Positions 1 to 64,000 of a stretch of 64,000 bases of DNA are shown here, one piece after another. The notes beneath the pieces were generated by a model, which worked only from the letters and a program-made list of their open reading frames with translations, made no database searches and was not told where the DNA came from. A program made the position numbers and the translations under genes. Position 1 is the stretch's first letter, and the number at the start of each line of letters is the position of its first letter. Source of the DNA: Scenedesmus sp. ARA3 (Eukaryota > Chlorophyta > Chlorophyceae > Sphaeropleales > Scenedesmaceae); contig RWJK01001263.1 in NCBI GenBank assembly GCA_004335835.1, forward strand, positions 20,111-84,110. The letters run 5' to 3'.

Positions 1-17
1 TGCTGGGCCAGTCACAG

Positions 18-2953
18 CTAGCTGTTGAACCAGTCGAAGAAGAGCAGCAGCAGGCTCAGCGTGACCATGAGCACCAGCAGGTAGTAGCGGCTGCTGCGGT
101 TGAGCACGATGGTCTTCTTCAGGTCCGCGTTGCCGCGCTTTATGTGCTGCACGGTGTTGCAGCGCACACACGCAGGACACAGAAAAGAGAGCGCAGCAAA
201 GCATCAGCAGCAGCAATGAGAACAGAGATGGATGGTCTTCTTCAGGTCCGTGTTGCTGCGCAATGTTGCAGTGGATGCGCGTGCAGGGCGCAGCAAAGCG
301 AGCGCAGCAGCTGCGAGTAACACGCTGGTGATGAAACCAAAGCATTACACTGTGGGATTCGACTGTTTGAGCACATTGCAACAGTTGAAAACCTGCTGGG
401 TAGATCAGCATTGTGAAGGATGACAGTCCACAAAGATGGCTGAACAAAAGCTTCCAGCAGACGATGCACCAACAGCACAATACACACGTGCATCATCCCA
501 TTATCGCGTAATAGCCGTGCACGCAACACACCTGCGTGGCGTCTACTGCGTTGTTGTACAGCGTCTCTATCATCTCCGCCTGCTGCATGACGGCCGTGCT
601 GATCATCTGGTTGATGGTGGTGATCTCCCGCATGGTGCGCTCAATGCCCTGCGCCTGCTGCACAGCAGACGACAGCTCCTCCTGCAACACACACGGTGCC
701 CAGCCATTGCAATGCAGCGACAAGCAGCACTAGGCAGTAAGGCAGTAGCCAGGCAAGTCGATCAACTGTGCTGTAACGTGTGCTCCAAGACGCGACACAC
801 TGCTCCAAGCAGAGCAGCAGCGGAGGGGCCGGCGCAGATGCAACAGCGCTGCATGCGGCATATATATATGCCGTGTGCGCCTCCAGCAGCTGCTGCAGGG
901 ATCAGCATGCACAGGACAGCTCTGCGTGTGCACCACCCCTGAGCCGCACATACCCCTGCCAGCAAGCGTGCTGCGGCACCGCATCAGTTGCTCCGGAACC
1001 GCCTGCACAGTGCTCAGCAAAACTGCAGAAGCATCACTCACCAGCAACTGCCGTGTGGGGTCCTGCTGCTGCACCTGCTGCTGCATGCTGCCGTTGCCTG
1101 CATCGCTGCCGCCGCCGTCTGATGAATGCCGCTCCTTCCGATCTGCTTGGCTGTTGAGCAGCTGCATCGCAAGTAGAGTGTGACGCGCACGCAGCACTCA
1201 GACACGTGCATAACAGATAAGCTTATGAAGAGAGGGGCAAGACCAGAGGCAGCCACTGCCAGGTCACAGAATGATAACAGCAGCAGCGATAGACATTTAT
1301 GTGCAGAGAAGCGTGCAAACAGCATACGCATGTTGATGGAACTGCCTGATCACTGCCAGTGTAAAGGCCCCATAGCATCTGCTGCAAGGACAGCACAGCG
1401 ACAGCACTTGCTCGGCAACGTCATCTGTTCTGCTGCTGCTGCTGCTGCCGCTGCTGCATCACTCCTGCTGGCTGCTCACCGCTGAGTGCGGCACCTTGCG
1501 GTGCTGCCGCAGCTCCTTCGCCAGCGACTGCTGGTAGCGCACCGCCCTGCACTTGTCAAAGCTCGCTGTCACGCTGTGCAGCTGCTCCACAAGCACCAGC
1601 ACCTGCAGGTTCACACATGGTTAGGCAGCAGGCGACATGCACAGTGTATCTGCAGATAGCAACAGCGCAAAGATGAGGCACATTGCAGCACTGCGCTTGT
1701 TCTGCATGCGGTGTATGAGTTTCTGCTGTCCCTGATAGTTGCTCCTGCAAAGTGTGCCTTTTCAGCTCCTTGCCGTTTGCGCAGTGGCTCCTGTGCGCAG
1801 CTGCTTTGCATGACAGCAGTGCATGGGCAGCGTGGCGTGCAACCTGTGCTGCTGCTGGTGTCGCTGCTGGTTTGGCTCTCAGACATGCATCAGGCACCCC
1901 AATCATGCAGCGCTGCGCACAGCAGCGGCCTGGCAGGCGCAGCTGCCGCCGCGCCACGCAGGTGTAGTTGCCGGCTGTCACTGCTGCTGCTGCAGCTGCA
2001 TTTCAAGCACGCGGCCGGCGCCCTACTGCATGCACATCCCTGCCACGCAAGCTCACCGCGCCGTGTAGGTGTGCTGCAGAGTGCTCGTTAATCAGTGGCT
2101 GCCGCCCATCTGCTGGCTGCTGCGCTGCTACCACTCCATCCTTTAGCGCATCTAGGTGCTGCGTGATGGCCCGCACTGCCTGGCCTACTTGCTCCTCTAC
2201 TTTGTCTTTGCCTTGCTCAGTGAGCTTTCCTGCAAGCAGCCAAATTGTAGGTGGTGGTGTGCGGGGCTCGTATGCGGTGACAGCTGGAGCAATGCGGTTG
2301 AGCGCCGCCGTGTGGGTGGTACATGCTGTGGCTGTATGCAGCTGCTGCGGAGATGTGGAATGCTGGATGCAGTAAGTGGGTTGCTGTAGGGCGCACACAC
2401 CTACTCCATTGCTGCACGTCAACTGTTCTAGCATTACAACGAGAACTTGCTACAATGTCAATCATACGCTGGACCATATGCTGCGTGAGCATGCAACAAG
2501 CATCAGGCCAACTGCTGCTTACCAGTGGACAAGTAGTCCCGCTTGTTCGCTGCTATGAACTCCCTGAGGTCGTGTATTGACCGGCTCTGCACACCACATA
2601 AATTACACTTAGCCTTATGCTGCACAGAAAGCCCATAGCGTGGATGCACTGGGCTGCTAGGCCTGCACTGCTGCAAGCAGAAACAAGTCACCCACCACAC
2701 CCTCTGCCACAGTTGAGAACTGTGAGCGCTCCTTCTTTGGCTTGAGTATCAGCGACTGTGTTTGCTTCCTGGCGTCCTCCTGCGTGTATGCACGCAAACT
2801 TTGAGGCCAGTGTGCTGCTAAATGCGATCGTCTGCTGTGTCGTCCTTTGCTACTGCTGGTGCTGTTGCTGCTGAATGCACTCACGGGGCTAAGACCTAGC
2901 ACACTACACGCTGATTGAACTGATTGAACCCAATCATCTGTTCGATCAAGCAT
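18..2953 (-). CDS. SYP81: Qa-SNARE of the SYP81 / syntaxin-18 (Ufe1) type
   Basis: An ER-resident tail-anchored t-SNARE for retrograde Golgi-to-ER fusion, by family knowledge. The ATG at 2951-2953 begins MLDRTDDW, like the RDRTEDF start of plant SYP81. Exon 2 (about 2702-2779) carries LILKPKKERSQF, matching the family's IIHKPKERSPF. Exon 3 (2523-2586) carries LREFIAANKRDY. The SNARE motif lies at about 540-680 (ERTMREITTINQMIS, then QQAEMIETLYNNAVDAT); the second Q of QQAEMI is the likely zero-layer glutamine. The last exon (18-146) encodes IKRGNADLKKTIVLN, then one hydrophobic anchor and the terminus FFDWFNS before TAG, as expected for SYP81 (LDWYS). Exons between 700 and 2500 are spread over long introns and were not all resolved. 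A decayed copy of the last exon's 5' edge lies at 232-264. Family assignment is secure; the exact internal exon set is not. Confidence 0.85.
232..264 (-). repeat. Intronic copy of the SYP81 last-exon 5' edge
   Basis: This repeats, with few changes, the segment at about 109-140 that encodes NADLKKTI of the last SYP81 exon. Flanking intron sequence (GCGCAGCAAAG-like) is shared too, so the unit is a direct tandem duplication of roughly 123 bp including the acceptor side. It is not needed for the protein. Confidence 0.7.
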
Positions 2954-3614: not shown

Positions 3615-5306
3615 TTAGCTAGACAGGCTCGTCAGCAGCGCCACACCCCGCTTGGTCCAGTGTGCTGCATCCTTGCTACTGGGCAGCCGGATGTCCAGCA
3701 CGAAGTTTGTGCTGTGCCCGGTGGTGCTCAGCACGCCGCGCCGCTCCGCTGTTTTGTACAGCGGGCAGTTGTAGTGCGGGTACGGGCTGAAGCTGGACAA
3801 GTCCTTGGGCACCATCCAGATGACCGGCATCTGCGTGAACAGCACCTGCACGGCAAGCAGGGCGCGGGCGGGTACCAAGTATCAGAAGCAATAAACTGTT
3901 ATTTGACAAGCTGTGTTAGCAGCTGGGGACAGGATGGTAATCACCAGCAGGGCGCCCAATGAAGCGCAGTCACACAGACAGCTGCTAGGTGCATGCGCCG
4001 CCTGACACCACTTGCAGCAGGCAGTGGACTCGAGCAAGCAGCACACGCGCAAAACTATGCAGGGGCGTTCGCAACACCATCCTGCGCTGAGTTGCAGGCA
4101 GGACTGATCAGACCTGCAAGTGCTGCCCTGCGTGCAAGCACAACGACACTGCCTGGCTGCTTACCTTTGGATGCGACTCCACCAGTTCATGGCTGCTGCT
4201 GTCCCATCTGGCACCCTCCAGAAAGAGCCCCCTGCAGTACACACCATCAGCTGGCGCTGCCACAGCCTCCCCGTCTGCGCCTGCTGCTGCTGCCGCGCCC
4301 GTTGCTGCTGCTTCTGGCAGGCCGTCCATGATCTCAAAGTCAAAGTCAATGGTGTCGATGGGCAGCTTGAGCTTGCGCGCATAGTTCTGCTTCGCACCAG
4401 TCAGGAACGCCTGCAGACAACACGCAATTGGCAGTGATCATGCACTGGTGTGAGCAGAGGCCGCTGATCAGTACAGTACACAACAGATGCACCTGCTGCA
4501 CCTGTGTATCGCGACGATCGTGCATACTGCCAGTGCTGGTAGCAAGCTATGCACCTCAAGCAAAGCAGCCCCAAGAGCCGCACCTGAGTGAAGAAGAAGC
4601 CGCTGATCCAGTACACGGGTGGCGCGCCGTGCTGCAGCCAGCCGCTGAAGAAGGCCACGCGCTCCAGCACCTCGCGCACGTAGCCGCCCAGCGGCTTGAG
4701 GCTGGGGAAGGACTTGCGCAGCCACAGGCCGGGCACCTGCATCGCGCACAGCAGCAGGCCAACTGTTTCATGCAACTGCTGTTGGTGTTCATAGCTGGGG
4801 AAAGGACCGCGCAGCCACAGCCCGGGCACATGGCAGGACGACAAAGCGGCAGCAGCAGCAGGGGTTGTTGCGAGGCCAGGTGAGGCAAGTTGAGGACATG
4901 CGAGGACCAGGGAGGCACGGCAAACCACAAGGCGGCAGCCAGCGCATGTGCAGACCGCAAACACGCTGCGAAAGCTACAGCTGCAGTTGCAGCTGTGTGC
5001 AGTTGGTATCCCTTGACAGCAGCGCATGCGCAATGCAAGTGCTGTTTGCGGGCCGATCCACTGGCTTTCCAGCAAAGATACCCATCTGCAGCAAACCGCT
5101 GCAGCATACGCAGCCATGACTCATGTAACATGCTGCATCCGAGGTGCCCGGTAGCGCACCTTGCCATCAAACAGCGAGCGGCCGAGTGCGTCCAGCTCTG
5201 CGCTCATCAGCGCCAGGCCCTTGCACGCCTGGTCCAGCGCCAGCAACGTGCTGCGCATCACGCTCAGCAGGCTGTTGAAGCGGCCAAGCTCCTGCATGCG
5301 CAATAG
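3615..5306 (-). other. Dynein C-terminal domain exons
   Basis: Visible pieces in order: [20 protein letters not shown] (about 5225-5290), the [20 protein letters not shown] exon (about 4585-4740) ending [10 protein letters not shown], an exon with [20 protein letters not shown] (about 4200-4410), and the last exon with [14 protein letters not shown] and [14 protein letters not shown] partial copy of the VPGLWLR edge lies upstream at 4790-4834. This arrangement is the usual end of axonemal heavy chains. Confidence 0.85.
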
Positions 5307-8300
5307 TCCCAAGCAGCACCAACAGCAGCAGCAGCAACATCAGGCCCTTAAACATACGTGCGTTGGACCTGGGCATACATATTGCTTGCCAGCTTGCTCC
5401 TGTACTGTTTGAGCTGCCCTGCAGATAGCATGATTGATGCTGGAAGCACTCGGCAGCGCGTGCGCTGTGTCTGCACACTGTTGCCGCCTGTGGTTTTGCA
5501 GCAAGTTCAGCACAGCAACCGCCCTGTACGCATTGCTGTCACAGCATCACTGCAGGCATCGCACCTGCACCAGCACTGTGTTCATGCTGTTGTAGTAGTC
5601 CTGAGGGTAAGCCCGCTCAGCAGCCTCGAGGTCAAAGTTGGGCGGCAGCCGCCCCAGGATGTCAGCAGCAACCTCGGCAATGACGTCCTCAGCACTGCGT
5701 ATTGCCGGCACTGCTGCTGCTGCTGCTGCTGCTGTGCCTGAGGCGCTGCTGTCCTGAGCATCTGCTGCTGCTGCAGCGCCGGTTGAGCTTGCTGCTGTGC
5801 TGCTGCGGGGGCCGGCAGCAGGCTTGGGTGCAGCTGGTGCAGGGGTACTGCTGCTGCTCTGGGTGAGCAGCAGGCTGTCCAGCAGCAGCTGTGACTCCTG
5901 CAGGTCCTTTGCAATGTCTGCGTTGTCATGCAGGCCAAACACTGCTGGCGCTGTGGACAGCGGCAGGCTGTTGATGTAGTCCAGATAGCCCTGCAAAACC
6001 AACAGTATGGTTTGCAGCAGATGGTTCAGCGCGCTGCCCTGTTTTACTTGGGTGCAAACAACAGGCTGACTTCCAGGACGATGCTGGGGATAGCTGTGCA
6101 ATTAACTTGCAGCATAACAAGGGTCGGCATGCAAGCAACGTCAGCAGCCGTATCGTCCAGTCAAAGTATGGTTTGGCAAGTGCGGCCTTAAAAACACGGC
6201 ACCCATGGTGGTGCCATAACTATTCACCTTATAGTTTGTGTGCTCCGGCACAGCATAGCCGTCTGTGGGTGTCCCTGCCAGGCTGTAGCCGGCAGTGGAG
6301 ACCAGTGCAGGGCTGTAGTAGGTGCTCAGCAGGGTCATCAGCGTGTGGCGGTCATGGCCATCCGTCACCTTGCCGCCATAGTTGCACTCGCCTGCGCATA
6401 GAACATGAGAGTTTGCAAGAAGCTGGTGCGATGTTTTGCCATCCGGCTGCTTATGACAGGTTGTAGACAACAGCACACAGCCATGCATACGGGGCTCACA
6501 ACCTGTGCTATGGACACAGTCCTGGTGGCAGGAGGCTGCACGCTGTTGCGCAACATGCAGCAGCTTATACGTCACAATCTGCTCAGCCATCTTAACTGTG
6601 TGCAGTACGTGTGTTTCTCACCTGCTGTATATGCCAGTGTGTCGTACGGTATGTCTGGGTACTCATCAAGGAACATGCGTAGCTGGCGGCAGCTGCACGC
6701 AGCAAATGACAGCGCACATGGCCTCGGTAAGCAAACTACTTGGGGCGTGTATGCACTTCATGAAGTGACACAGTACTCTAGGCTGCCATGCTGAGGCAGC
6801 TGCACGCAGCGTTCTACCAGCGTTGTCACCCTGCGCAGCGCAAGGGAATGGTCAAACACGCAGCGCCCCTCAAGCGCCCCCACCTGATGCGCAGGTCGTT
6901 CTCGTTGAACTCGTAAGGGATGTTGAAGCCGATGGGCCCGAACTTGCGCCGCTCCTGCAGCACGCTGTGGAAGAAGGCCAGGCCCAGCAGCAGCCGCCTG
7001 AAGGGCGCATCATGCACGCAGCCCTCCAGAAAGTCGCTGCTGCAGAAGGGGTCGCTCGCGTACGTGCGCAGCAGGCCTGCGGCGGGATGTGCACATGACA
7101 ATGTACAGCACACAGTATTGCAGGGATTGGCCAATGTGCGCAGGCGCGAGAGCATGCAGGCGTTGATCATCGGAAGCAGCCAGTCAAGCAAAACAAACGC
7201 AGGTGCAGGGTGCATAATTCGCTGGGTTGTGATCAATGCACCAGCCACGCTGCCCAGAGCGGCATGACCAAAAAGCAGCAGCGCACCTGCGCGCAGGCCC
7301 TTGGGGGGCTCGTTGGTCATCTTGATGCTGTTCTCCAGCACGCTGATGGGGAACTCGGGGCTGGGGTAGCTGGTCAGCCACAGCCTGAAGCTGCTGTGGC
7401 AGCGGCCCTCAGCCAGCAGCGACTCGCACAGCAGCTCCAGCGTGGTCATGAAGCTCTTGGCCAGGTGGCAGTTCTGCAGCCGAGTTGTGTTGGAGCAGTA
7501 GCAGCAGCAGCAGCAGCAGCAGCAGACGGGGAACGTGTGCAGCAATCCAGTTTTCTGGCTTGAGTTGAGGTTTCGCAGCTAACAAGCTACACTTTGCGCG
7601 CCATGTGCATTAGCAGGCGGCTCTGCCCCCAATGCAACAACACATTGGACTGCCGTGTAGCATGCAAGCAACACTGCTGCAAGCAGGTCCCTGTGTGTGC
7701 AAGCCAACCCCACAGCCGCTAACAAAGCAGCCGATTTCACAGCAGCAATGCGGCAATGCAGCAGGGCCACACTCACCTGCAGCACCACCCAGAAGCCTGC
7801 CGTGCTGCCCTCCTCAATCAGCTTGGTAGCCACAGGCCCCTGGCCCTGCCCCAGGCTCACAGACTCAACCCGCACGCCACGGTCATCTGCAAACTTGAGC
7901 AGTGCTGCCATGGGGTCGCTGCCCGGGGACAGCACAAAGATGAGCGGCGTGGCGGCGCTGCTGTCGGCAAAGGAGGGCTCCAGCGCAAATGGCTGCGGCT
8001 CCACAAAGCGCCTGCGACAGCATTTTCGTATTATAAGGAATGTATGAGGCACTGTATGAAACAGGCCAGGTGAGCAGTTCAACAAAGATCTGCATGGCTC
8101 TGTGCATCACGTGGGTGTGTGACTGTCTGGACTGAGCACATCACGGGCCCGAGGTTTGGCGTAAGAAGATACAAATTACCAGCAACGCACCCGCCCATGA
8201 CTTCAGCCACATACGCCATGATGGCTGGCGTCAGCTTGTCCTGCCGCATGGCGCGCAGCAGCAGCAGCCGCTGGAACGCGTCCAGGCGGCCCTGCCAGTC

Positions 8301-11300
8301 TCCTGGCAGCGGCTCGGACTGCGGCGCTGCGCTGTCATACAGCACGCGCCACTCGTCGAGGTGCTCTGCAGGCGGCGGCAAGAACAGCGACGTCATCATC
8401 AGCAGCAGGCAGTGTGGCAGCGCCGTGTGCTGCGAGCAGCCCAAGTGCATGCAGGATCAAGTGCCTCCAAGGAGTATGGGCATGTGAAAATATGTCCATC
8501 TCAGGACCTACTTGCCAGCCTTGCAACAAGCATGCAGCAGCAGCAGCAGCAACAAAGAAGCTGCAGCAGCCGCACCTGCCACGTGCGCAGCCAGGCCTTG
8601 CCATGCTGGCCCCAAGTCTGACGCCCTGCACAGCTCCCCCCAGCACTTGTCTGCGATCCAGTCGGGCGCTGGATTGGGCAACGGCAGGTCTCCCACAGCA
8701 ACGCCGCCTGCAAGATCATGAAGCGCAGTTCAAGCTAGTTGGACGATCGCCGCAGTAACACACAATGATAAGGGCTCGCCAAGTGCGGGCAAGTGACTGC
8801 AGATGATGTGTGGGGACAGCAGTGGTGACAGCAGGTGTGGCAGCGCTGCAGCAGCAATGAGTTGCATCACTGCCGCGCACCTGTCATGAGGAAGCGCAGC
8901 TCCTGCTGCCCCACCGCGCCCGCATCCAGCCGCAGCTTCAGCGCCAGCGTGAACGCAAACAGCAGCTTGTCCTTCTCAAACAGCGACCTGCGCGGTGGGC
9001 CAGAGAATCAGAGCAGCAGCAATGCTACACCTCACGACAGCCGCAGCCGGAACAATGCCCAGCTGGCAGACAGCCACATCGATGCAAGGATGCAGCCCAT
9101 CCCTGGAATCCTACGGCACCCCCTAACCAAGAGCTTGCACACAAGAGCTTGTCCTTCTCACACAGCGATCTGCGCAGCGCAGCGCAGCGCAGCACAGCAC
9201 CAGGGGGCCGCCAGGACAGCAGCAGCAGCAGCAGCAGCAATGCTCCACCTCACCAACTCCTGCGCCAGAACATACGCGCTGCTGCTGGTAACAGACACAG
9301 CCGATTTCTGACACCCGAGGCATGCAGGCGTAGCTGTGGAGTTGAATTGACAGCTCGCGGGTTGTGCCAGCAAACGCTGGGCTGCCCACCTGCACACGTT
9401 CTGGTACAGGAAGTACGTGAAGTGGTCGTTGAGCAGCTGCAGCCGCGTGGGCAGGTCGGGGCTGCGCATGCTGTCTGCGATGGCGCGCGTGAAGAGCTCC
9501 ACGAACCAGCGAAGGCTGTACTGGTACATGGGGTCGATGGCAGCCAGATCGGTCACGCTGAAGTACAGCAGGCTGGCGTGGTGCGCCACTGGCTTGTACT
9601 CTGCGGAGGCAGAGCATGTGGAGATTTGTGTGTGTACACACATGTGGTATGACACCAGAAGGCGTGACACTCCATATGATGAGGCATGCGTGTGCTCGGA
9701 TTGTTTTTCAAGCAGGTTTGCTGTACTCATGAGTGATGCCCATGCCAGGAGTGCTGACATACATGACATAGCTGTGTCCAAGACAGGTGCTGATAGGATG
9801 ATACCCGGACAGTTCAGGGTGTGCATCAAGTGCATGCGCAACTTCCGCCTGCATGGCAAGAAGTGCCTCACCTTCTCGCGCCTGGTCAATCTTCTGCTCG
9901 GTCTCATCTGCAATCTTCTGCTTGCTGCTAATCTCATCAGCAAGGATCTTGCTTGACTGCAAGCAGCAAAAACACAGCAGGGCAAATAACCATCATCAGT
10001 GCATGCGGCTTGCCAGCATGCGCAGCTGGCGGTTGCAAGTCACGCCTGTGTGCAGTGAGGCCTCTGAGCATGCTGAGCAGGGCGCCCCAGATGAAAGGCA
10101 GGAGGAAACGAACCTGCAGGATGTTGACTGCCGCCGCATCCTCCAGGGTGCTGCTGCTGCTGCTGGGCCACACCCCTCTGCCATGTCACCAGCAATGCAT
10201 GCACATCACCGCCAGCCACCCACACCCTCTCAGCACACGGCGCAGGGCCTGCCAGATGGACACTCTGTCTCGTCATGTCTGCCATACAGCCGGCCTGCAG
10301 AACATTGACTGCCGCCTCGTCCCCCAAGATGTAGCTGCTGCTGCTGCCGAGTCACACCCTGTCATGATAACTGGGTTGCATACACACCAGCATCTGCCAC
10401 ATGTCTAACCACAGCCCACCTGCAGGATGTTGACTGCCGCCTCATCCTCCAGGATGTTGCCGCTGCTGCTGCTCAGCACGCGCAGGATCTCGTCCTCCGT
10501 CTCCTTCAGCTTGCGCTTATTAGCAGCTCCGCTGATGATCAGCTTGGCCTTCTCTTCCTCGAGGTCGGGCCGCTCAGCAGCCACCACAATGCCCAGCAGC
10601 TGATCTTCCAGACCCTCAGGGGTGGTCATGAAGTTGAGAAGAGACACCTGCAGCCAACAGCAACAGCATTGGCTTGCAAACTAAGGCTCTGAGGGAGACA
10701 GAGCCACCATGATGCCCAGCAGCTGGTCCCCCTGGCCCTCAGGGGTGGTCATGAAGTTGAGCAGCGACACCTGACCACAGCGGCAACACAACATAAGCAG
10801 GGCAGCAACCCAAACAGTGAGATGCTAAGGCAAGCACCCTGACGCTAAGGGCCCTGGTGGGTGGGACAGAGGCTGCCCAGGCCCTCAGGGGTCGTCATGA
10901 AGTTGAGCAGCGACACCTGGCGTTCAGCGACAGCAGCCGGGTTAGTAACCCTCAGCATGCTACAGCACGCATCCATCAGTTACGCCAGGCCTCATACGAA
11001 CATTTCCTACGTTCTGAGGCACGTGCATGTAATGCCCGCTGCTTGCTGTAATCAAGTGCCGCATGATTTACGTCAGCTGCAATGCGGATACCCAAAGCCC
11101 AGCACCCATAGTTCTGCTCACCTTGGTACACAACTCAGGTGCGAAGTGCGGGTTGCGCAACCTGCAGGCATGCAGCACACAGTGCGTTTGCATTACAAGT
11201 GTGACATACAGACTCAGCATAGGCAGTTCATCATGCGGGCAATACAGCTACAGGCTGACACCAAACCTCAGTCAAACAGGGCTGCAGCGTTGCTGTACTC

Positions 11301-14260: not shown

Positions 14261-14309
<49 letters not shown>

Positions 14310-44086: not shown

Positions 44087-46320
44087 ATGCGCGGCTCCTT
44101 AGCCGTTCTGCTGGTTGTTTTCCTATCTTTTCTGAATCTAGCTAGCGGACAGACGGTATTAGACGCTCTCACCGGCCTATGGCGCGGCAATCAAGGCAGT
44201 GTGCAGCGGGGTGCTGTCAACCTGGCACGCCTGTCAGCAAGGCCGGCCCAGTACAACTTTACCCTGCCTCAGTGCAAAACAACAAACGTGTTGCTCAACA
44301 ACGGAGGCTTCCCCAGAGATTGGGCTAGGTTGCAACCTCAGGAACAGGTGGGAAGGGGTGCAGTGACGCACAGAACCGTGCAGCCTAGGACTGCTGTCAC
44401 TTGCTGCCAAGCAGACAAGTGACATAGCTCACCCAAACCTTTACAAGCACACCTGCCTGCTGCAATGGCAAACAACTTCATCCACCTCTAGCCAGCTGAG
44501 CGTGCAAGTTACCCAAGACAGCTGTGTCATCATTCGACTTGCTGACTGCCAATGAGTTTGTGAGACTCATTGGGACACAGTGAGCTTGCAGCTTCCAGCC
44601 CTTTGCCACCCTGCACGCCATTGCTTCCACACTCACGTTCATCCCTTGCTGCCACTGCTGCCTACAAAACGCACAGGTGCTGCACCCCATCAACCTCGTG
44701 ATGATGCAGCTGGCGTATGCAGTGTACCAACCGCCAGATGCCCTGACGGGCTGCTTGCAGGCCATGGGCATCGTGCCCAACAGCATCAAGGTGGTGGAGG
44801 CAAATGTGCCAGAGTATGACACAGTGCGCACAGCCTACGTGATGATGGCTGCCAACCAGCGCATCTTTGTGCTGATACGGTGAGCAGGCGGTGTGCACCG
44901 CACCTGTGATGGAAAGCGTAAGACACCTCTTACGTGCACTCATGTGTTGACTGAGATGCCCCTGCCTATGCATCGTCAGCATGCCAGCATGCAGCTACAC
45001 GTCATGCACCGCCTGCTACTGATGCCGGCTTGCAAACATACCGAGTCTCCTAGGTACAATGCATGCACCATGTGGTGTCTCGCTGTGCACGCAGGGGCTC
45101 CGTAGTGACAAGGGACACACTCACGCATGACGTCACAAGCAAAATGCCAGCTTGCAGCCACACGTCGCGCACTGCCTGCTGTGTTCTGTTGCGCATGCAG
45201 GGGCTCAGTAGTGACAAGGGACACACTCACGCATGACGTCACAAGCAAAATGCCAGCTTGCAACCACACGCCGTGCACTGCCTGCCGTGTTCTGTTGTGC
45301 ATGCAGGGGCTCCGTAGTAACCAGGGACACACTCACGCATGACGTCACCGTCAACATGCCAGCTTGCAGCTACACGTCGCGCACTGCCTGCCGTGTTCTG
45401 TTGTGCATGCAGGGGCTCCGTAGTAACCAGGGACACACTCACGCCTGACGTCACCTTCAACATGCCAGCTTGCAGCCACACGTCTTGCACTGCCTGCCGT
45501 GTTCTGTGGCACATGCAGGGGCTCTGTAGTGACAAGAGACGCACTCACGCGCGACGTCACAATCAACATGGCCTGCCGACATGTCCAGCCACCAGAGAAC
45601 ACCTTTGGAACACCTGGCAGCGACATCAGGCTGCACAGAGGCTTCTACCGCGCCTGGCAGGTGCTAGAACCTGGCGTAACTGCAGCTGTGCAGGCATATT
45701 TGAAGAAGGTGCCTTCTGGAGAAGTGTATGTGGTGGGGCACAGCCTGGGAGCTGCGGTGGCATCTATTGCGGCACTGCGGCTCAATGCAGTGCTCGGCGC
45801 TGCGCAAGGCAGCAGGGGCACTGTGGCTGGTGTGTGGCTGATCGCGAGCCCCAGGCCAGGTGAGAGCGATTTTATGTTGTGGCTGGCTGGCTGCTGGCAT
45901 GCAGGTGGCAGCATCAAGCGTGCTGTGTGGTAAATCAATCCATCAATCAATCAATTACATGTTTTTCTAGCAAGAGGTGAACACAGAGAAGGGAGCCACT
46001 CCCAAACCACCTTAGGTGATTCGTGGCCAGTGAGTGTGCTGTGTGGTCGGTGTTGTTTTATAAGTGCCACGCTGTGGGGTGGTGTGTGGTTTGGACGCAC
46101 CAGACCAGGCATGACTTGTTGCTGCTGACTGACTGGCTGATGCCAGCAAGTGTTGGCATTGCAGGATGCAGAGAGCAGCACATGCTGCGCAGGCAGGTGC
46201 CACATGCAGCCTGACAAACCACTTGCATAGACGATTGCAGGCGCAAAACATGAAGACTGTGCTGCTGCTTGTGCCGTTTTCTGGCAACGGCTGCCTTCGC
46301 AGCTTGCTCTGTTGCTAATG

Positions 46321-50889: not shown

Positions 50890-53132
50890 ATGCATTCCTT
50901 ACACCACAAATCGGTCCTGCAAGGCTGCATGGGCATACGGTCCAGGTCTCGTAGCCAGTCGCATTACGGGCTGAGCCCCTGCAGCTCCAGCTCGTTTCGC
51001 ACTCCACAAAACGGACTGTCCAGATATTATTTAGTCAACACCCAGTCGGCTCGACCAGAAAGCGCCCAACAGCTGCAGCCTGATGTCGTGGAGGCTGGCA
51101 GCAGTGAGCAGCAGCAGCAGACTCTGGAGGCATTTGCCGCTGAGCAGCCAACAGACGGCAGCATCACGCTGAGCGACATGTCAGTGGAGGACCCGCCAAC
51201 ATTCGAGGAGCTGGGCATTGACAAGCTACTGGTGGTGAGCATTTGCAATTCAAGTGAACGCTGTGCACCAGCCGGCGTCAGCATGCATGTGTGGTGGGCT
51301 GTGGCTGGTCAGCATGGTCAGCAAGCTGTTAGCGCCCCTGGGCTGTTGCAATCTCATCCCGTTGCTGTGTTCCAGCTTCGTGCAAGCTTCTCTTTGGCAG
51401 CACTGCTGCTGTTGCCACACTGGCAGATGTTTTCACGCCGCACCCAAGCATGCATGCTCAAGCTACTCTGACGGTGGTCACGCAACTGCCTGCTGCTGCT
51501 GCTGCTGCTGCTGCAGTCCTGCCTCGCTGAGTCAGGCATCGAGCTGCCCTCACCCATCCAGGAGGCAGCCATCCCGCAGCTGCTGGCGGCGCACAACGCA
51601 GCAGTGCAGAGCTACACCGGCTCCGGCAAGGTGCGAGGGGGCGCATGCCTGGCTTGAGCAGATGTAACAGTGATGAATTCAGCTTTTCAGACATAGGTCA
51701 TGTTGTAGAGGCACTTCATGGTATTGTTTCAGGGTCACACGGGGCAGCTGTTATGCGCCAAAAGGGGGTGCCAGCATCTGTGCCGCAAACCAAGGTCACG
51801 ATCATGTGCACCATGGAGCCGCAGCTGCTGCCCATTGGTGTCCACCTGTGACCTTAGCCTTCCTGCCGGGGTCTCAACACAGGCTTTCAAGGCACTGCCA
51901 CCCCTGCTGACACCCTCTTTCCGCGTCAACCTCCTACATGTCACACTCTCGCAGACGCTGGCGTACCTGCTGCCAGCCATGACCCTCGCGCTGCGGCGCG
52001 CTGAGGCCACATACCGCCGCCAGCAAGCCGCCGCATCATCTGGTGCCTCATCCCTCGCGGAACAAGACCAATACAGCGTGCAAGTGCTTATTGTAGCACC
52101 AAGCCAGGAGCTTGCAATGCAGATCTGCAGGGTGGCTGCTGGGCTGCTGCCCCCTGAGGGCCGCAGCGCAGTGCAGCAGGCCATTGGCGGGGCGAATATG
52201 CGGAGGCAGGCTGAGGCGCTTGCTGAGAAGCAGCCGCTGGTGGTGGTGGGCACGCCTGGGCGGCTGGCTGACCTGATGCGGTGAGCAGGATGCACGTTGT
52301 AACTTGTGTGTCTGTCAGTATGTGGTAGCAGGCGCGGTACTGGTTGCAGCAGCTGGTTGGCATCAGGTAGCACAACGTTGCGATGCATGTATATATGGAA
52401 GCCCATTTCGCAGTGGCGACATTGGCTGAGAAGCAGCCGCTGGTGGTGGTGGGCACACCTGGGCGGCTGGCTGATTTGATGCGGTGAGCAGGGGATAGTG
52501 TAGTTAGTTGCATCATGTGTGCCTGGCAGCATGTGGTATTAGGCGCGGTCCAGGCTGCTGCAGCAGCAGCAGCGGCAGCAGATGGTTGGCTGTGGGCAGC
52601 ACAACGTCGCGCTGCCTGTATAGGAGAGCATGTTGCTGTGTTTGTGTAGGCTGAGAAGCAGCCGCTGGGGGTGGTGGGCACGCCTGGGAGGCTGGCTAAC
52701 CTGATGCGGTGAGGACACAAAGAAACCAGCTGGTTTTGAGGCTGTAAGAGGCAGTTTGAGGCGGTCACGGCGGCAGCAGCTGTTGACAACTACAGTGCAT
52801 GCTGTATGTCTACCAGCATCTGATGGTTTGCTTGCCTGGAAGCATGTCGGTAGACTAGCAGCGACATGGCCTAAGTCTGATCATATTCTGCTGCTGCTGC
52901 TGCTGCCGCTGCTGTTGCTGCTGCTGCTGTTGCAGCATGGGTGCGCTGCGGCTGCACCGCTGCCCCGTGCTCATCATGGACGAGGCTGACCAGCTGCTGG
53001 GAGATGTGTATGCAGCTGACATGGCCCACATCAGCGAGCACTGCGGCAAGAAGCTGGGCCAGCAGCAGCAGCAGCAGGGCGGCAAGGGCAAGGGCAGCCG
53101 TGCTGCAGGCAATGCAGCTGATGCAGCCGCAC

Positions 53133-53224
<92 letters not shown>

Positions 53225-54350
53225 GAAGGAGATAAGGGCAGCTTACTGCTGCCAGTCAAGCGGCAGACGGTGCTTGTGAGTGCTACGCTTTGGGACGGTG
53301 TGCTGGGCCGCTTTGCCAAGTGGTGCCCAGAGCCGCAATTCCTGACCATGGGCAATGCTCCCACTTGGTCGAATGATGACGAGGATGACGGCGCAAATAA
53401 CAAGGGTTCAGAGGGCAGCAAAACCTGGGGCTGGGGCGCAAAGGGCTGGGAGGGTCCGGCGTCTGTGGTTCAGGCGGGCCCTAAAACCCAGGGCATGGCC
53501 GGGGGGGCGGAGGGTTCAGGGCTGGTGCCGACGATGCCGCCGAATTTGGAGCATCGTTACATGGTGGTGAATCCGCAGCATAAGGCTGATGCAATGCGGC
53601 GGGCTATGTATGCGCTGGAGATCGGCATGGGCTTAGGGTTCATGAACTGGCAGCAGCGGCTGAAGGACGTGGCTGGCAAGGTGGCGGCGAAGAAGATTGA
53701 GGTGGGTGGCGCTGGGTCGGATATTTGGTGTGTGTGGCTGCTGGGTGTCGGGGTGTGCATGCTAATGCATGTGTGTGTAGTACGATTAGTGGGTATGCTT
53801 GTACTGCCCGCTGATGCTTGACAACTAGTACCAGAACGGCAAGCGTGTCACCCATGTCATGCTGGCAGCAGCCAAGCTTGATTGTTGGACGCAATTGGTG
53901 AGCATATTAGTTCACAATGATTTATTGTCGTTGTCCCTCACACCCGCAGGTGGGGCAGCTGCATGGTGACATGACCCCCCTGGAGCGTGCCGCCGTGCTG
54001 GATGCTGCGCGCAAGGGTGCCTTCCAGCTGCTGCTGGTCAGCGACGTGGCGGCACGTGGCATCGACATGCCTCAGGTGGGTCTGGGGTTGTGTGTTCTGT
54101 CAGGATCAGGAGTTGTGTTCTGTCGACCTTGATAGTGTCAGAGTCCGCTGTCAGTGTGCCCGGCAGTGGGTTATGCAGCTGCACTCGGCTGTGACGCAGA
54201 ACAGCAGCTTGTCTGTGGAGCTGTACAGCTACAGTTTGTGGCACCTCATGTATCTGTGGGAGGCTGCAGCACCCCTTGAGCTCAGCTAACCTCACTCCTT
54301 TCGTCGCTGCCCGCTGCTTCTGTCGCTGTTGCCGCTGCTGCTGCTGCTGC

Positions 54351-54406
<56 letters not shown>

Positions 54407-54494
54407 CAGGTTGAGGTGGTGTTCAACATCGAGATGCCCAGCTCGTTCAAGTTCGATCTCAAAGTCGCTCCCTGCTGCTGCCGCTGCTGCTGCC

Positions 54495-54568
<74 letters not shown>

Positions 54569-55673
54569 AGGTTGAGGTGGTGTTCAACATCGAGATGCCC
54601 AGCAACGCGGCGCACTACGCGCACCGCGCGGGCCGCACGGGGCGCATGGGGGCCCCAGGGCTGGTGCTGAGCCTGGTGGCACCGGGAGAACGCTTCGTTG
54701 TGCAGCGGCTGAGCAAGAAGCTGGGCGTGCCCATCATGGTGGGTGTTTTTCTGGTTTTGTGGGGAGTGCGGATTTACACTTTGTGGGCCGCCTGTTGATT
54801 TAAAAGCAAGGTTGAATAGGCGGCATCTGGCATCAGCTCAGATGGCCGCAGGTTTTGTGGGGGTTGGGGTTATCAGCAAGTCAGCTGTGGGGCGCATGGG
54901 AGCCCCGGGGCTGGTGCTGAGCCTGGTGGCACCGGGGAGCGCTTCGTGGTGCAGCGGCTGAGCAAGAAGCTGGGCGTGCCAATTAAGGTAGGTGTTTTTC
55001 TGGGTTTGTGGCGCGTGCGGATGCACACTTTGTGGGCTGTCTGTTGATCTAAATGTAAGGTTGAATAGGCGGCGTCTGGCATCAGCTCAGATGGCCACAG
55101 GTCTGTGGGGTTCGGGGTTATCAGCAAGTTGGCTGCGAGGGCCGCATGGGGGCCCAGGGCTGGTGCTGAGCCTGGTTGCGCCCGGGGAGCGCTTCGTGGT
55201 GCAGCGGCTGAGCAAGAAGCTTGGTGTGCCCATCATGGTGAGTGTTACTGCAGCTATCTGTATTGTTATTGGTACAGGACGTCAGTCTGTACAAGATGAG
55301 GAAGGCTTGGTGTTGTGTCGGCATCTGGCGGTTGGTGCTGGCCAACAAGCACCCAGCTTTGGATCATGACAGGAAGCAAGCAGAACATGCTGCAGGTACA
55401 CTTCATGTATGGGGAGTTGGCATGCAATTCAAACACTGCAGTTGTCTTGGTGTGCCAGCTCACTTTACATGCCACTGCTTCTGCATGCGCTCGTGTAGGA
55501 GTGCCACCTTGCTGCTGGTGAGGTGGTGCTGGGGCCGCCGCCAGTCAAGGAAAAGAAGAAAAAGAAGGTGCTTAAGGAGCAGCAGCAGCCAGAGCAGCAG
55601 CAGCAGCCTTCCAGCAGCAGTGACAAAAGCAGCAGTGACAAAAGGAGCAGCAGCAGCAGTAGCAGCAGCCAGG

Positions 55674-59165: not shown

Positions 59166-62100
59166 TCAAGATGCTGCTAAGCCAGGCTCACCACCCGTCC
59201 CAGCTGCAGCACCTGCCCCGCTCATCCGCATGCAGCCACAGTACACCAGCATGGACACAGCCACCCCCACAAACCAAGCACAGTCATAGATGGCCCCAAA
59301 CACAGGGCCAGGGCTTGCGGCTAGCCCCACCGAAGCCAGCAGGCCAGGCAGGCAGGGCAGCACGCCGGCAGCCACCGCCAGCAGCGCTGCAACGTTGTAA
59401 CCACCCTACAGCAGAGCAGCACAGCAGCCGGCACACAAGGGGCACAGGGTGAATTGATCAATCCTCAAATGTCAGGCAAACTCAAGTTTTGCTTGCGTCA
59501 AGCAGCAAGATTCTAACAGCGGGCCAGGGCTGCCAGCCAGCCCCATCGATGCCAGCAGCCCCGGAAGGCAGGGCAGCACGCCAGCAGCCACCGCCAACAG
59601 TGCTGCAATGTTGTAGCCGCCCTACAGACAAGCAGAAAGCGCAGCAAGGCTTGTTGAAGCATGCAGCAGGCAGGGCAGCACGCCGGCAGCCACCGCCAGC
59701 AGCGCTGCAACGTTGTAACCGCCCTGCATCCAAGCAGACAGCGCAGCAAGGCTTGTTGAAGCATGCAGCAGGCAGGGCAGCACGCCGGCAGCCACCGCCA
59801 ACAGTGCTGCAACATTGTAACCGCCCTGCAGCAGAGCAGCACAGCAGTTGGCACGACACGGTAGCGTGAGCGAGGTACAAAGGGCTTGGTGACAGCAACT
59901 AGAGGCGTTGTAGCCGCCGGGCAGCCAGGCAGCCAGGCAGCCAGCAGACAGCGCAGGAATGCGGCAATGCTTGCTGACACGTGCAGGGTGTTGACAGCAA
60001 GGGCACACTTCCGACGATGCCTCATCCTTTACGGCAGGCAGCCGCCAAACTGCTCTGAATGAATGAATGAATGAATGAGCTACGCGTGGTGTGTTCACAC
60101 TTGACACCTGCGTAATTTAATGAAGAGGACGTGTGTGGCGATGAGGATACCTCATGCGCCTCTACGCCTCCTGCCATGCCAAACTGCTCTTGATGTAACC
60201 CAGCACGGCGCTCACCTGGTACCAGCAGCGACCGCCAGGGTCCATGGAGTACAGGTCATCCACATCCAGCTGCCTCCCGCGCACAAGGTAGTAATCAGCC
60301 AGCACCACACCAACAACCGGGCCCAGCAGTGCGCTGTAGCCCACCAGCCATCAACAATGCCTCCAAACAGTTGGTCCCCTGTATCATGTCTGATGGCTGC
60401 TAGCCTGGCAACCGCATAACTGCAACCTAGCGCGTAGCTAACCTGGTACCAGTAGCGCCCGGCAGGGTCCATGGAGTACAGGTCATCAATAGCCAGCACC
60501 CGTTTTCGAATCAAGTAGTAGTCAGCCAGCACCACGCCCACCACCGGCCCCAGCAGTGCGCTGTAGCCCACCAGCCAGTTGACAAAGCCGCCACTGCTGG
60601 CCATGAGCTTCCAGGGCATCACGCAAAGACCTAAGAGAGCTGCGGCAGCAAGGGATGACACAGCAACGTTTTGTAAAATGCACAAGACTATGCTGGCCGT
60701 GCTGTTGACGGCATCATGCAAAGACATAGGAGAGCTGCGGCAGCAGTAAGGGAAGCAAGGCGCCCCGGGGCAGTAAAGACTGGTGGCTTGTGTATTTTCT
60801 ACGCCGTGTGTAGCCCACCAGCCAGTTGACAAAGCCGCCGCTGCTGGCCATGAGCTTCCAGGGCATCACGCACAGCCCCAGCAGCGCTGCGGCAGCAGCA
60901 AACAGGCAGACATCGACACGATGCGTTATTTTGGTCCCCGTGCACGGCGAGTTGCGAGCTTCCAGGGTATCACGCACAGCCTCAGCAGCGCTGCAGCACT
61001 GAAGCGATAAGGTGGCAGGGAAGCAGTCAGAGTCATTGGCTTGTGCGATTGTCTGTGCCATGTGTAGCCGATCAGCCAGTTGACGAAGCCGCCGCTGCTG
61101 GCCATGAGCTTCCAGGGCATCACATACAGCCCCAGCAGCGCTGCGGCAGCAAGGGAAATGACACAGCAGGCAGGGTGACTGCAATCCAGCAACATGCATA
61201 TAGTTAAGCTGCTGGCCCTGAGCTTCCAGGGCATCACACACAGCCCTAAGAGAGCTGCAGCAGCAGCAAACAGGCAGGCATCGATATGATGCGCTACTTT
61301 GGTCCCGGTGCACGGCGACTTGCGAGCTTCCAAGGCATCACGCACAGCCCCAGCAGCGCTGCAGCAGCAAGAGAAGTAACACAGCAGGCAGTGTAACCGC
61401 AGTGGTGGTGCAAGTATGCATAAGGATGCTGGCCATGAGCTGCCAAGGCATCACACACAGCCCCAGCAGCGCTGCAGAGCAGCAAGGTAGCAAGCAGTAA
61501 CATCAAGCAAGTGTCGGGCCGACTTCCTCAGCCGGCTGGTGGGCTGCAGCTGCTGACTGAGTGGCTACCCAGGCAGCTCTGCAGCTTAGAGGGTGTGTGT
61601 GGCCAGGGGCGTCGCCCCTGGGCTCCACACCCTCTACCTGTGCAGCTACTACTAGCCATGAGCTTTCATTGCAAGACACACAGCCCTAGGAGAGCTGCGG
61701 CAGCAGCAAGGCGGAAGCAAAACAGCCGCATTATAGAAGTGTTGAGCCGGCTGCCAAAGGCGGTCGGTGGGCTGTAGCGTGATGCTGGCCATGAGCTTCC
61801 AGGGCATCACACACAGCCCTAAGAGAGCTGCGGCAGCAGCAAGGGAAGCAAGGGGAAGGCAGAGTCACAGCATTGTGTGATTGTCACAGCATTGTGTGTT
61901 GTATGAAGCAAGGGAAAGGCAGAGTCACAGCATTGCGTTTAGTTGGATTCTTGCTGGACCCCATGAGCCTTGTCTGGCTCCTTTGTGGGTGGGCCTGTGG
62001 CCCTACTTTGGTAACTAAACTGGTGATGGTCTGCGCCATGGAAAGCCCCAATGCGCGAGCTGCCGCTGCGGGCCATGACTGTTCAAAGCATCACACACAG

Positions 62101-62458
62101 ACCCACCAGCGCTGCGACGAATCAAGGCAGCATGGAACAGGCACGCTGATGAAGCATATGTAAGATGAGACAAGCCGAGTGTTGCTGCTGCAGCGCCCAG
62201 CCGCACCAGAGGTGAGTCCCCCCGTGTTTTCATTCAAGATGCGCGATGAAGCATGTTGGACAATACAGTAACTGGTGGTGGTTTTGATGTATGCTGTGTA
62301 CGCCACGACGTGCAATGTACTGCCCAGCCGCACCAGTGATGAGTCCTCCCGTGGTGAAGCTGATGACCCTTGGTGCCAGGTTGATAATGGCGTTGGCGGG
62401 CGCTACGACATTGGCTGCGATGTTGGTGGTCAGCGTGGCCAGGATGAGCCCTGCAGGT

Positions 62459-62513
<55 letters not shown>

Positions 62514-64000
62514 GTGTCGGCACCTGCATGTCAACTCTTGAATTGGCAGCAATGTTGGTGGCCAGGATGAACCCTGCAGTTAGGCATATTGCAAGCAGCT
62601 TGTGTGTTTACGCGTAACATGTTTCGTTCTGCATGGCGTGCGGCTTACGCTGTTGAAGGCATACACTGTCACTGCTGCGCTGCCATCCCCTACCCCAGCA
62701 CAGTACAGCACACCAGACCACAGCACAGCACACCAGACCACAGCACAGCACAGCACAGCACAACACAGCGCAGCACAGCACAGCAGGCCACAGCACAGCA
62801 CAGCACAGCACATCACAGCACAGCACAGCAGACCACAGCACAGCACAGCACAGCACACCAGACCACAGCACAACACAGCACAGCACACCAGACCACAGCA
62901 CAGCACAGCACACCAGACCACAGCACAACACAGCACAGCACACCAGACCACAGCACAGCACACCAGACCATAGCACAGCACCAGGCATCCCCGTGCATCG
63001 CCCAGCATCGCCCGCTCACCAAAGAGTGACACTGCACCCACCAAAGAGTGACACTGCACTCACCAAAGAGTGACACACACACTGCCAGCGGCTGCGTCAT
63101 GTGGCTCAGCAGCTGACATCACCAAAGAGTGACACTGCTCGCAGAAGAGTGACACATTACTCACCAAAGAGTGACGCGCACACTGCCAGCGGCTGCGTCA
63201 TGTGGCTTAGCAGCTGAATTCACCAAAGAGTAACACTGCTCACAGAAGAGTGACACTGCACTTAACCAAAGATTGACACTGTACTCACCAAAGAGTGACA
63301 CGCACACTGCCAGCGGCTGCGTCATGTGGCTCAGCAGCTGCACCGGGTCTACCACGGGCGCGCCATAGATGACCACAGTGGCACTCGTCACGGCTAGGCC
63401 TGCACAATGATACACAAAAAGGTGCATCAGCATAGCAGCGTGGTGTAATGTGCGTTGTAAATGACCACAGTAGCACTGGTCACGGCAAGGCCTGCACGAT
63501 GATACACAACAAGGTGCATCAGCATGGCAGCGTGATGTAATGCGCGCTGTAGATGACCACAGTAGCACTGGTGACAACCAGGCCTGCACACGCATACACA
63601 AAAAGGTGCTTCAGCATAGCAGCGTGATGTAATGCACCCTGCAGATGACCACAGTAGCACTGGTCACCGCTAGGCCTGCACATTGCTACACAAAAATGTG
63701 CATGAGCATAGCAGCGTGATGTCCAGCTCCCTGAAGATGACCACAGTAGCACTGGCCACGGCTAGGCCTACAGCCTGCAGGGAGCAGCCGCAGCAAGACC
63801 AATACACAACCGGTGCGACAGCGCAGCGTGGTATCACGACGCTGTGCATGATGGACACAGTGGCGCTGGTCACGGCAAGGAGTGAAGAGAAAAAAGCATC
63901 ATGTCTGGTTGCAGCAAATGTACGGGAAGCACGGCAACGTTCTGCATGCGTGCCGGGCTGCTGCTTGACATGCATGTTGAGCCGGCGTGTGATTGGTGCA
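59166..64000 (-). CDS. NCS1 family nucleobase/allantoin transporter, 3' part (5' end outside the window)
   Basis: A 12-helix cation-coupled importer for purines, pyrimidines or allantoin (plant PLUTO type is plastidic; location here unknown). The last four exons are 63289-63399, 62334-62450, 60443-60639 and 59166-59405; they join in phase and give about 221 C-terminal residues that align without gaps to the family: [129 protein letters not shown], then two last helices and a TGA at 59166-59168. The introns are packed with tandem copies of the exon edges, more than in any other gene here. No exon was recognised between 63400 and 64000 except such copies, so the preceding exon lies beyond the window. 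Confidence 0.88.
59526..59955 (-). repeat. Copies of the NCS1 last-exon 5' edge
   Basis: The edge [21 protein letters not shown] (real at 59340-59405) is repeated at about 59526-59625, 59660-59726 and 59766-59825, with a short remnant at 59905-59925. Each is preceded by a GTAG or GCAG acceptor, and the second and third share about 100 bp including AGGCTTGTTGAAGCATGCAG. Confidence 0.85.
60056..60080. repeat. GAAT microsatellite
   Basis: Six tandem copies of the tetramer TGAA/GAAT within the last NCS1 intron. Confidence 0.9.
60208..60350 (-). repeat. Copy of the 3' part of an NCS1 exon with donor
   Basis: Reads [37 protein letters not shown], then a GTGAGC donor. It parallels 60443-60575 of the upstream exon but lacks that exon's first half and has no acceptor. 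It still codes without a stop, so it is young or under some constraint. Confidence 0.8.
60640..62115 (-). repeat. About ten copies of an NCS1 exon 5' edge ([12 protein letters not shown])
   Basis: The functional edge is at 60560-60639. Copies of the acceptor plus [21 protein letters not shown] sequence lie at about 60713-60750, 60815-60899, 60955-61000, 61075-61150, 61210-61268, 61325-61370, 61432-61480, 61655-61710, 61790-61845 and 62070-62115. Two extend through [12 protein letters not shown]. All are direct, with varied length and flanks, and several share a following AAACAGGCAGRCATCGAYA segment. Confidence 0.85.
61588..61635. repeat. Long hairpin in the NCS1 intron
   Basis: AGAGGGTGTG..CCAGGGGC, a GTC loop, then GCCCCTGG..CACACCCTCT. 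The 8-bp inner and 10-bp outer arms are perfect and are joined by a short mismatched stretch, giving a foldback of about 21 bp per arm. Confidence 0.7.
62170..62235 (-). repeat. Copy of an NCS1 exon 3' edge with donor
   Basis: Repeats the [12 protein letters not shown] end and GTGCGGCTGGGC donor of the exon 62334-62450 (real edge 62320-62360). Located about 130 bp downstream in the transcript. A small copy of the same exon's 5' edge lies at 62544-62578. Confidence 0.7.
62459..62512 (-). repeat. CTG run before an NCS1 acceptor
   Basis: Eighteen CAG triplets on the plus strand, CTG on the sense strand, followed by CACCTGCAG and the exon starting LILATLTTN. Same arrangement as in the lipase and helicase genes. 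Confidence 0.8.
62698..62985. repeat. CACAG pentamer satellite
   Basis: Nearly 290 bp of CACAG pentamers interrupted regularly by CACCAGACCA, giving a higher-order unit of roughly 20-35 bp. It lies in the NCS1 intron between exons 63289-63399 and 62334-62450. On the sense strand it is CTGTG-rich. Long frames here are artefacts. Confidence 0.9.
63012..63288 (-). repeat. Copies of an NCS1 exon 3' edge with donor ([13 protein letters not shown])
   Basis: The real edge ends at 63289 ([10 protein letters not shown], then GTGAGT). Two direct copies of [14 protein letters not shown] lie at about 63055-63114 and 63163-63216. Several extra fragments of only CACCAAAGAGTGACAC, the donor border itself, are scattered between 63010 and 63260. 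Confidence 0.8.
63369..63880 (-). repeat. 92-bp tandem array of an NCS1 exon 5' edge
   Basis: ATGACCACAG starts at 63369 (real exon), 63461, 63553, 63645 and 63737, exactly 92 bp apart; a diverged copy (ATGGACACAG) starts at 63851. Each unit carries the [18 protein letters not shown] start of the exon, its CTGCAC-side acceptor and about 55 bp of intron. Confidence 0.88.

Follow-up and report, generated by a model that had tools for sequence, protein, structure and literature searches.

The window analysed here, a stretch of 64,000 nucleotides from Scenedesmus sp. ARA3, raises the question of how the edges of exons, together with their splice sites, came to be copied into neighbouring introns, and whether a process directed at splice junctions is needed to account for this. 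The window covers positions 20111-84110 of its contig in an assembly of 87.3 Mb (1567 contigs), and this contig ends shortly past the last array of the NCS1 permease gene. Genes were found by six-frame Pfam scans (with gaps on the plus strand at 4-40 kb and past 59 kb, and on the minus strand at 14-24 kb) and by homologues, and exon maps were made with a purpose-written spliced protein-to-genome aligner (Table 1). The dynein map, aligned to Scenedesmus dynein P0003, comprises 81 exons at 91% identity with 3 frameshifts, and the intron lengths cluster narrowly around 200 nt. For one stretch of the dynein gene, the highest-identity match was dynein heavy chain 9 of Scenedesmus sp. NREL 46B-D3 (97%, across a tenth of the query). 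The NCS1 exons agree with a T. obliquus protein in 245 of 248 aligned residues. We take the DNA to come from Tetradesmus obliquus or a very near relative. The name SYP81, given in an earlier note to the gene at the left edge, is unconfirmed: Pfam scans of both strands of 1-4000 detected no SNARE domain, and the exon start near 146 was placed by eye from the reading frame.

Table 1. Genes and copied exon edges in the window (positions in nucleotides unless marked kb).
Feature	Position	Strand	Particulars
Axonemal-type dynein heavy chain gene	3618..36515	-	81 mapped exons, median intron ~200 nt; spliced alignment
CDKA-like kinase gene	at least 36.7-38.6 kb	-	CDK2 fragments as exon-map query
SLC25 carrier and class-3 lipase genes	about 41.5-46 kb	+	Pfam; junctions judged by eye
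DEAD helicase gene	from about 51.9 kb	+	exon map from P0241, apparently transcript-derived
NCS1 permease gene	about 59.2-63.4 kb	-	exon map from P0121/P0123
Acceptor-edge copy, gene called SYP81	108..309	-	exon start ~146 by eye, period 123
Dynein E78 acceptor-edge copy	4701..4832	-	offset 93
Dynein E68 acceptor-edge copy	8955..9284	-	offset ~185
Dynein E65 donor-edge copies (2)	10112..10472	-	offsets 125 and 306
Dynein E65 acceptor-edge copies (2)	10579..10935	-	offsets 123 and 267
Dynein E58 donor-edge copy	12868..13112	-	offset 204
Dynein E58 acceptor-edge copy	13170..13356	-	offset 130
Dynein E54 donor-edge copy	14420..14563	-	offset 108
Dynein E22 acceptor-edge copy	25754..25951	-	offset 167; weaker, outside cluster set
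Dynein E18 acceptor-edge array	27864..28184	-	period 105
Dynein first mapped exon, donor-edge copy	36130..36416	-	offset 140
CDKA acceptor-edge copy	36775..36968	-	exon 36707-36823
CDKA acceptor-edge copy	37265..37526	-	exon 37172-37306, offset 136
SLC25 acceptor-edge copy	41464..41671	+	exon start 41575 by eye, offset 124
SLC25 acceptor-edge copy	41825..42054	+	exon start 42016 by eye, offset 189
Lipase acceptor-edge array	44971..45570	+	exon start 45519 by eye, period 106, four decoys
DEAD helicase donor-edge array	52222..52713	+	exon 51952-52280, two decoys
Helicase acceptor-edge copy	54303..54603	+	exon start 54571, offset 161, CTG-rich
Helicase donor-edge array	54639..55246	+	exon end 54738, period ~249, two decoys with a 1-nt deletion each
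NCS1 acceptor-edge array	59299..59854	-	exon start 59405, period 102
NCS1 donor-edge copy	60194..60593	-	exon end 60443, offset 227
NCS1 acceptor-edge array	60562..62143	-	exon start 60639, 10 decoys, two of them taken as exons in P0121
NCS1 donor-edge copy	62195..62353	-	exon end 62334, offset 127
NCS1 donor-edge array	63014..63340	-	exon end 63289, two decoys
NCS1 acceptor-edge array	63358..63880	-	exon start ~63399, period 92

Direct copies of exon edges and their probable origin

Self-comparison and Tandem Repeats Finder revealed numerous direct local repeats besides trinucleotide runs, with tandem periods of 92-249 at lipase, NCS1 and helicase according to the latter program. A self-search of the window at a single threshold (repeat pairs 30-700 apart, at least 36 bits) gave 22 local-repeat clusters, of which 21 were retained after removal of a low-complexity cluster of CACCAG type (57916-58288). 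All 21 span a splice junction, as checked against the exon maps, four of them by eye (two SLC25 junctions, lipase and "SYP81"). Splitting the composite clusters and adding dynein E22 (37 bits, outside the 22 clusters) yields 25 junctions with copies, 16 acceptors and 9 donors, carrying 49 copies in total; copy totals vary among the tests described below because the thresholds vary. Single-step offsets are about 92-250, and one NCS1 acceptor has the highest copy number, 10. None of the 21 clusters includes an entire exon, the largest copied portion being about 150 of 197 nt (an NCS1 donor). The earlier note had described direct, local, junction-spanning copies at both acceptors and donors, 1 to about 10 per junction and never a whole exon, and this description is borne out in the window. 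In a control with one triplet shuffle for each of six dynein genes, no pair reached 30 bits.

Below the cluster set, the 426-nt dynein exon contains one exon-internal pair (36 bits, rounded), and there are a few weaker exon-to-intron matches of 28-37 bits. One lipase breakpoint, inspected by eye, has a near-identical 8-mer at either side. CACAGC-rich repeats extend from the NCS1 donor array at exon end 63289 to position 62692.

Introns that hold copies are longer. Ten of the 80 dynein introns carry one, and their median length is 405.5 nt (range 276-2187 nt, with offsets of 93-306), vs 198.5 nt for the 70 without (p = 4e-6). At acceptor junctions, all 13 values for the intron part of the copy are at least 51 nt.

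We consider it most probable (at roughly 0.6) that these structures stem from local duplications, made by repair or slippage, that were sieved by purifying selection and in part grew into arrays. Duplications of ~90-250 bp would arise inside genes, the source probably being microhomology-mediated or synthesis-dependent repair, or replication slippage. A duplication internal to an exon usually alters the protein, one that spans a single junction need not affect it, and one internal to an intron is silent. Purifying selection would thus remove the protein-disrupting duplications, and since exons are ~150 nt, introns ~200 nt and units 90-250 nt, a surviving unit would usually cross exactly one border. 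Of the two copies, the one contiguous with the exon body would be spliced, and the other would persist as intronic filler with a decoy splice site that is normally left unspliced. Recombination between copies would then enlarge arrays, and introns would lengthen unit by unit. The use of one copy per junction is predicted from homologues and transcript-like proteins rather than from RNA of this organism.

Unequal divergence of exon and intron parts

Simple duplication followed by drift of the decoy predicts that intron parts diverge less than twice as fast as exon parts. In the outermost copies, exon edges are 77-100% alike and most intron flanks have lost similarity; the dynein E58 donor copy, for instance, has an exon edge 95% identical and an intron flank without detectable similarity. 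Within one helicase array the flank falls from z = 20 in the inner copy to z = -1 in the outermost one, vs exon identities of 0.94 and 0.90. Compared with simulations based on each junction's own exon divergence, flanks were too dissimilar at 13 of 24 junctions (p < 0.05) and below the expected median at all 24 (Fisher p = 2e-13), a comparison that is biased because the exon edge had been picked for its similarity. A test of the aligned share of the intron part, which mends this bias only partly, gave a median of 0.41 over 21 junctions vs simulated values of 0.93-0.94 (MW test: acceptors p = 1e-4, donors p = 5e-4), although the simulations contained no large intron indels, which could end local alignments. 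The share was at least 0.7 in about seven of the 21 junctions, and outermost flanks aligned over 0.83-1.00 at E0, E18, the helicase acceptor, CDKA and lipase; because any aligned base is counted, the share can be high despite a low flank score, as in the first helicase array and lipase. Similarity over the whole unit, as plain tandem duplication with neutral decay would leave, is thus not the general finding, and the likeness of exon edges beside unlike flanks goes beyond simulated neutral decay.

The splice sites of the decoys are largely preserved, in line with the reservoir of decoy splice sites proposed in the earlier note: AG or GT is intact in 43 of the 46 alignable copies (of 49). Acceptor dinucleotides are conserved above the exon side (p = 0.008, copies not being independent), and donor dinucleotides show no excess conservation over the exon side (p = 0.50). 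Where the functional exon differs from all its decoys, 12 of 14 differences (ten arrays) are at third codon positions, the pattern that constraint on the exon alone would produce. Columns that vary among decoys of the same ten arrays lie at third positions in 48 of 86 cases, vs one third expected (p = 3e-5) or vs the 0.46 allowed by recurrent copying with neutral decay (p = 0.08), and changes private to one decoy do so in 20 of 42 (p = 0.07 vs one third). In one helicase array, whose decoys are frameshifted by 1-nt deletions, all 9 of the 9 variable columns are third positions. For all copies in the window the third-position share is 169/305 (p = 0.001, copies not being independent), and for the best copy per junction 65/127 (p = 0.25). 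Strong coding constraint on the decoys was considered and rejected, as a share of 49/89 in 15 alignments (three dynein genes, one being the stop-codon edge) fits neutral decoys beside an exon that accepts only synonymous changes (p = 0.09).

Exchange with the exon, or the joining of diverged homologues, would explain this unequal decay. The former is the stronger competitor of our preferred reading, although we regard it as clearly less probable: in such concerted evolution, gene conversion from the functional exon would overwrite the exon part of each decoy, AG or GT included, as the intron parts drift. It would account for outermost exon edges that remain alike beside dissimilar flanks, for intact decoy dinucleotides, for third-position variation among decoys, as if the exon had been sampled at different times, and for the persistence of such variation in frameshifted helicase decoys. 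However, the decoy-decoy share is not clearly above 0.46 and the private changes do not clearly exceed one third; large intron indels and the selection of exon edges by similarity could each contribute to the flank result; several outermost flanks still align over most of their length; and no conversion tract was observed directly. Some continued copying from the exon onto decoys is probably needed for the leftover likeness of exon edges. The fuller proposition, in which the exon repeatedly overwrites its decoys, splice dinucleotide included, so that near-perfect decoys are constantly renewed and the spliceosome must reject them by context alone, we hold to be somewhat more doubtful still.

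The joining of diverged homologues, with an edge from a related haplotype or strain placed beside the resident exon so that the introns never matched, appears unlikely. It would cover similarity confined to exons, differences at third positions, intact splice sites and regional clustering. Against it, no second haplotype was present in the assembly for the two tested exons (the tested dynein exon has a 77% partial match to another contig, C26), the third-position share of 0.51-0.56 is below the expectation for two coding lineages, and multi-copy arrays require an additional process.

Junction overlap, regional density and assembly support

The earlier note had invoked a local mutational process targeted to, or tolerated at, splice junctions. 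A geometric formula that takes the observed periods and intron lengths predicts that 18.0 of 22 events cross a junction, or 19.2 of 22 if crossing events are detectable 1.6 times longer (82-87% overall); it was applied to 22 of the 25 junctions, SLC25 and "SYP81" being outside it. In a simulation of 1600 random duplications in four dynein genes, with purging of exon-disrupting events, neutral ageing and the same BLAST detection, 72% of detected events crossed a junction, a share lowered by over-long, probably mis-mapped introns among the templates, vs 21 of 21 observed. The corresponding probability, 0.721 raised to the 21st power, amounts to about 0.001, or 4e-4 in a version with 24 of 24, both post hoc in a window picked for the pattern. 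No intron-only cluster occurs among the 21 in the window, vs about 28% expected. With 72-87% crossing expected, the junction bias is therefore mostly a matter of geometry and selection, with a modest excess remaining.

The exon part of the copies is short (median 46 nt, n = 22, vs 74 nt simulated; KS p = 0.001), in part owing to an apparent requirement of acceptors for 40-50 nt of intron: when the intron part must measure at least 40 nt for acceptors and 6 nt for donors, the departure falls to p = 0.07. Two further candidates were rejected. Random short-patch copying of exon pieces predicts many exon-internal patches, and none of the 21 clusters is of this kind. Recursive splicing, in which a used decoy acceptor rebuilds a donor at an exon that starts with GT, would fit the six dynein acceptor junctions, which all start with GT, but over all acceptor junctions the count is only 8 of 16, close to the proportion among dynein exons (roughly two in five, by eye).

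Outside the window, five other dynein genes searched at the same threshold yielded four events: one at a splice edge, one at a stop-codon edge (a duplication that spans the stop codon and 3' flank and includes no splice site) and two in introns only, the last two resting on a homology map that possibly misses exons. A 10-kb stretch elsewhere, with no Pfam domain on either strand, holds another three arrays, although the stretch need not be free of genes. A process aimed at junctions, for example via transcription or the splicing machinery, would account for the complete overlap in the window and for the short exon parts, but events away from splice sites in other genes, together with the sufficiency of geometry, selection and detection for most of the bias, make it rather unlikely, slightly more so than the joining of homologues. 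Such targeting is thus mostly unneeded. In the window the overlap is above the simulated share (21 of 21 vs 72%, post hoc), and in the five other dynein genes one of four events lies at a splice edge.

The copies are local in sequence and regional in occurrence. Each of the four units searched genome-wide matches its own locus only, unlike introners or other dispersed elements, for which related copies at many loci would be expected. The window holds 21 clusters in 64 kb vs 9 in 190 kb of five other stretches (about sevenfold), and the first 10 kb of the same contig, at its opposite end, holds one. Exon-edge copying is therefore regional, and local duplication with a selective sieve does not explain the high density of the window.

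A public protein model bears on both the reality and the use of the decoys. T. obliquus protein P0121, from a 6.03-Mb contig of another assembly, contains 27 residues that are missing from six other aligned NCS1 proteins, and this insert corresponds to two decoys of the NCS1 array in the window, with 26 of 27 residues identical. As the insert is encoded by two decoys, the NCS1 array is present in a second assembly. Within the insert the copied exon is out of frame, and the insert is absent from P0124 (named a transcript) and from P0122 (a 1989-base contig, probably cDNA). A selected role of the decoys as alternative or regulatory splice sites might be suggested by their intact dinucleotides and by the inclusion of two of them in this model. 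It appears quite improbable to us, given that reading frame, the lack of the insert in the other proteins, and the frameshifts and few stops found in decoys; it is less supported than continued copying or the joining of homologues.

Misjoins of haplotypes or tandem repeats during assembly are the least probable source of the copies, and the earlier note had also judged an assembly error unlikely, for although the excess density of the window and the nearby end of the contig might raise suspicion, the decoys differ among themselves by substitutions and indels, the T. obliquus model offers outside support (for the NCS1 acceptor array only), and an artefact would not leave exon interiors untouched.

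Significance and comparison with known systems

Local duplication sieved by selection may offer a concrete route by which compact introns lengthen, with one junction-spanning duplication per step. In the table of PMC5966456, T. obliquus UTEX393 (GC 57%) has a mean intron of 462 nt vs 230-302 nt in four other algae; intron growth of this kind might fit that mean. The arrays also provide natural near-perfect decoys, up to ten beside one true acceptor, with which site choice by the spliceosome could be examined, and they pose a hazard for annotation, as the 27 decoy-derived residues in the public T. obliquus NCS1 model illustrate. Were concerted evolution to prove correct, gene conversion between exon and intron would lie outside the models compared here.

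The earlier note's statement that no standard class explains these structures was too strong, as two papers describe precedents. In the potato RdRp gene, a junction-spanning tandem duplication, with two copies that differ at ten nucleotides, gave rise to a new spliced intron (PMC4974935). The window differs in having copies at 25 junctions of several genes, up to 10 per junction, which apparently stay inside an existing intron. In vertebrates, repair-mediated and closely linked duplications of up to 619 bp include exons, UTRs and intron splice sites (PMC2671141). The copies in the window resemble these in being direct, local and a few hundred bp apart at most per step, but every cluster of the window meets an exon border, and several are arrays.

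Other systems share less with the window. The Rogers model of intron gain through duplication of an AGGT-containing exon segment (as cited in PMC4974935) likewise involves tandem duplication of splice dinucleotides, whereas the copies described here sit within longer introns: a Rogers-type gain would give an intron as long as the unit and composed of exon sequence, vs the excess of intron length over offset in the copy-bearing dynein introns. Exon duplication, including mutually exclusive exons, would copy a whole exon with both splice sites, which none of the 21 clusters does. Minisatellites share the tandem periods seen at lipase, NCS1 and helicase, but here each unit combines intron with the edge of a local exon, and at many junctions there is a single copy. 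Within the terms searched, no report of such arrays in Tetradesmus was found in the open-licence full-text literature. As far as that literature shows, the density of the copies, the occurrence of arrays at both kinds of exon edge and the difference in decay between exon and intron parts are new.

NCS1 copies in a public protein and the contig edge

Two decoys of the NCS1 permease gene, that is, intronic copies of an exon edge with its splice site, encode a 27-residue insert of the public T. obliquus NCS1 protein P0121 (OEZ85_012883), in a reading frame that differs from that of the real NCS1 exon; the insert is likely a gene-model error. The contig terminates where the window does, a little upstream of the 5'-most mapped NCS1 exon and its array, and protein alignment gave no match to the N-terminal part of NCS1 anywhere in the window. 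CAG/CTG-type trinucleotide runs are numerous in the window, the longest comprising 30 perfect units.

Positions of the features discussed (window positions unless a contig or stretch is named)
Feature	Position	Detail
CAG/CTG-type run	7494-7525	example, among others
CAG/CTG-type run	14264-14328	example, among others
CAG/CTG-type run	53134-53223	example, among others
CAG/CTG-type run	62459-62512	example, among others
NCS1 decoy	60819-60886	part of P0121 insert
NCS1 decoy	61815-61827	part of P0121 insert
NCS1 5'-most mapped exon	63289-63400	
Contig end	64000	C920:84110
Dynein frameshift	34023-34202	
Dynein frameshift	33490-33639	
Dynein frameshift	27113-27259	
Dynein exon	5565-5990	partial matches to C26:36328-36526
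Dynein to NCS1	3618-63400	
Dynein stop-codon duplication	36266-36479	C1548 stretch, L046-L049 joined
Three tandem arrays	C1475:23047-27558	L037 3047-7558

Duplications on other contigs

Elsewhere in the assembly, another dynein gene carries a 113-bp tandem duplication over its stop codon and 3' flank, a copy of a coding edge in which a splice site is absent. Three tandem arrays on a further contig have best offsets between copies of 115-160; scanning both strands of this stretch revealed no Pfam domains.

The dynein gene and its linkage to NCS1

The dynein exon map against the Scenedesmus protein P0003 contains three frameshifts, which may reflect sequence error, annotation difference or a lesion. 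One dynein exon has two partial matches (77% and 82%) with overlapping query ranges on contig C26, which perhaps reflect a separate dynein gene carrying a local copy of its own. For the Scenedesmus sp. NREL 46B-D3 relatives of dynein (P0003) and NCS1 (P0123), the contig given is in each case 1,194,225 bases long, which suggests that the linkage of the two genes is conserved in that strain.
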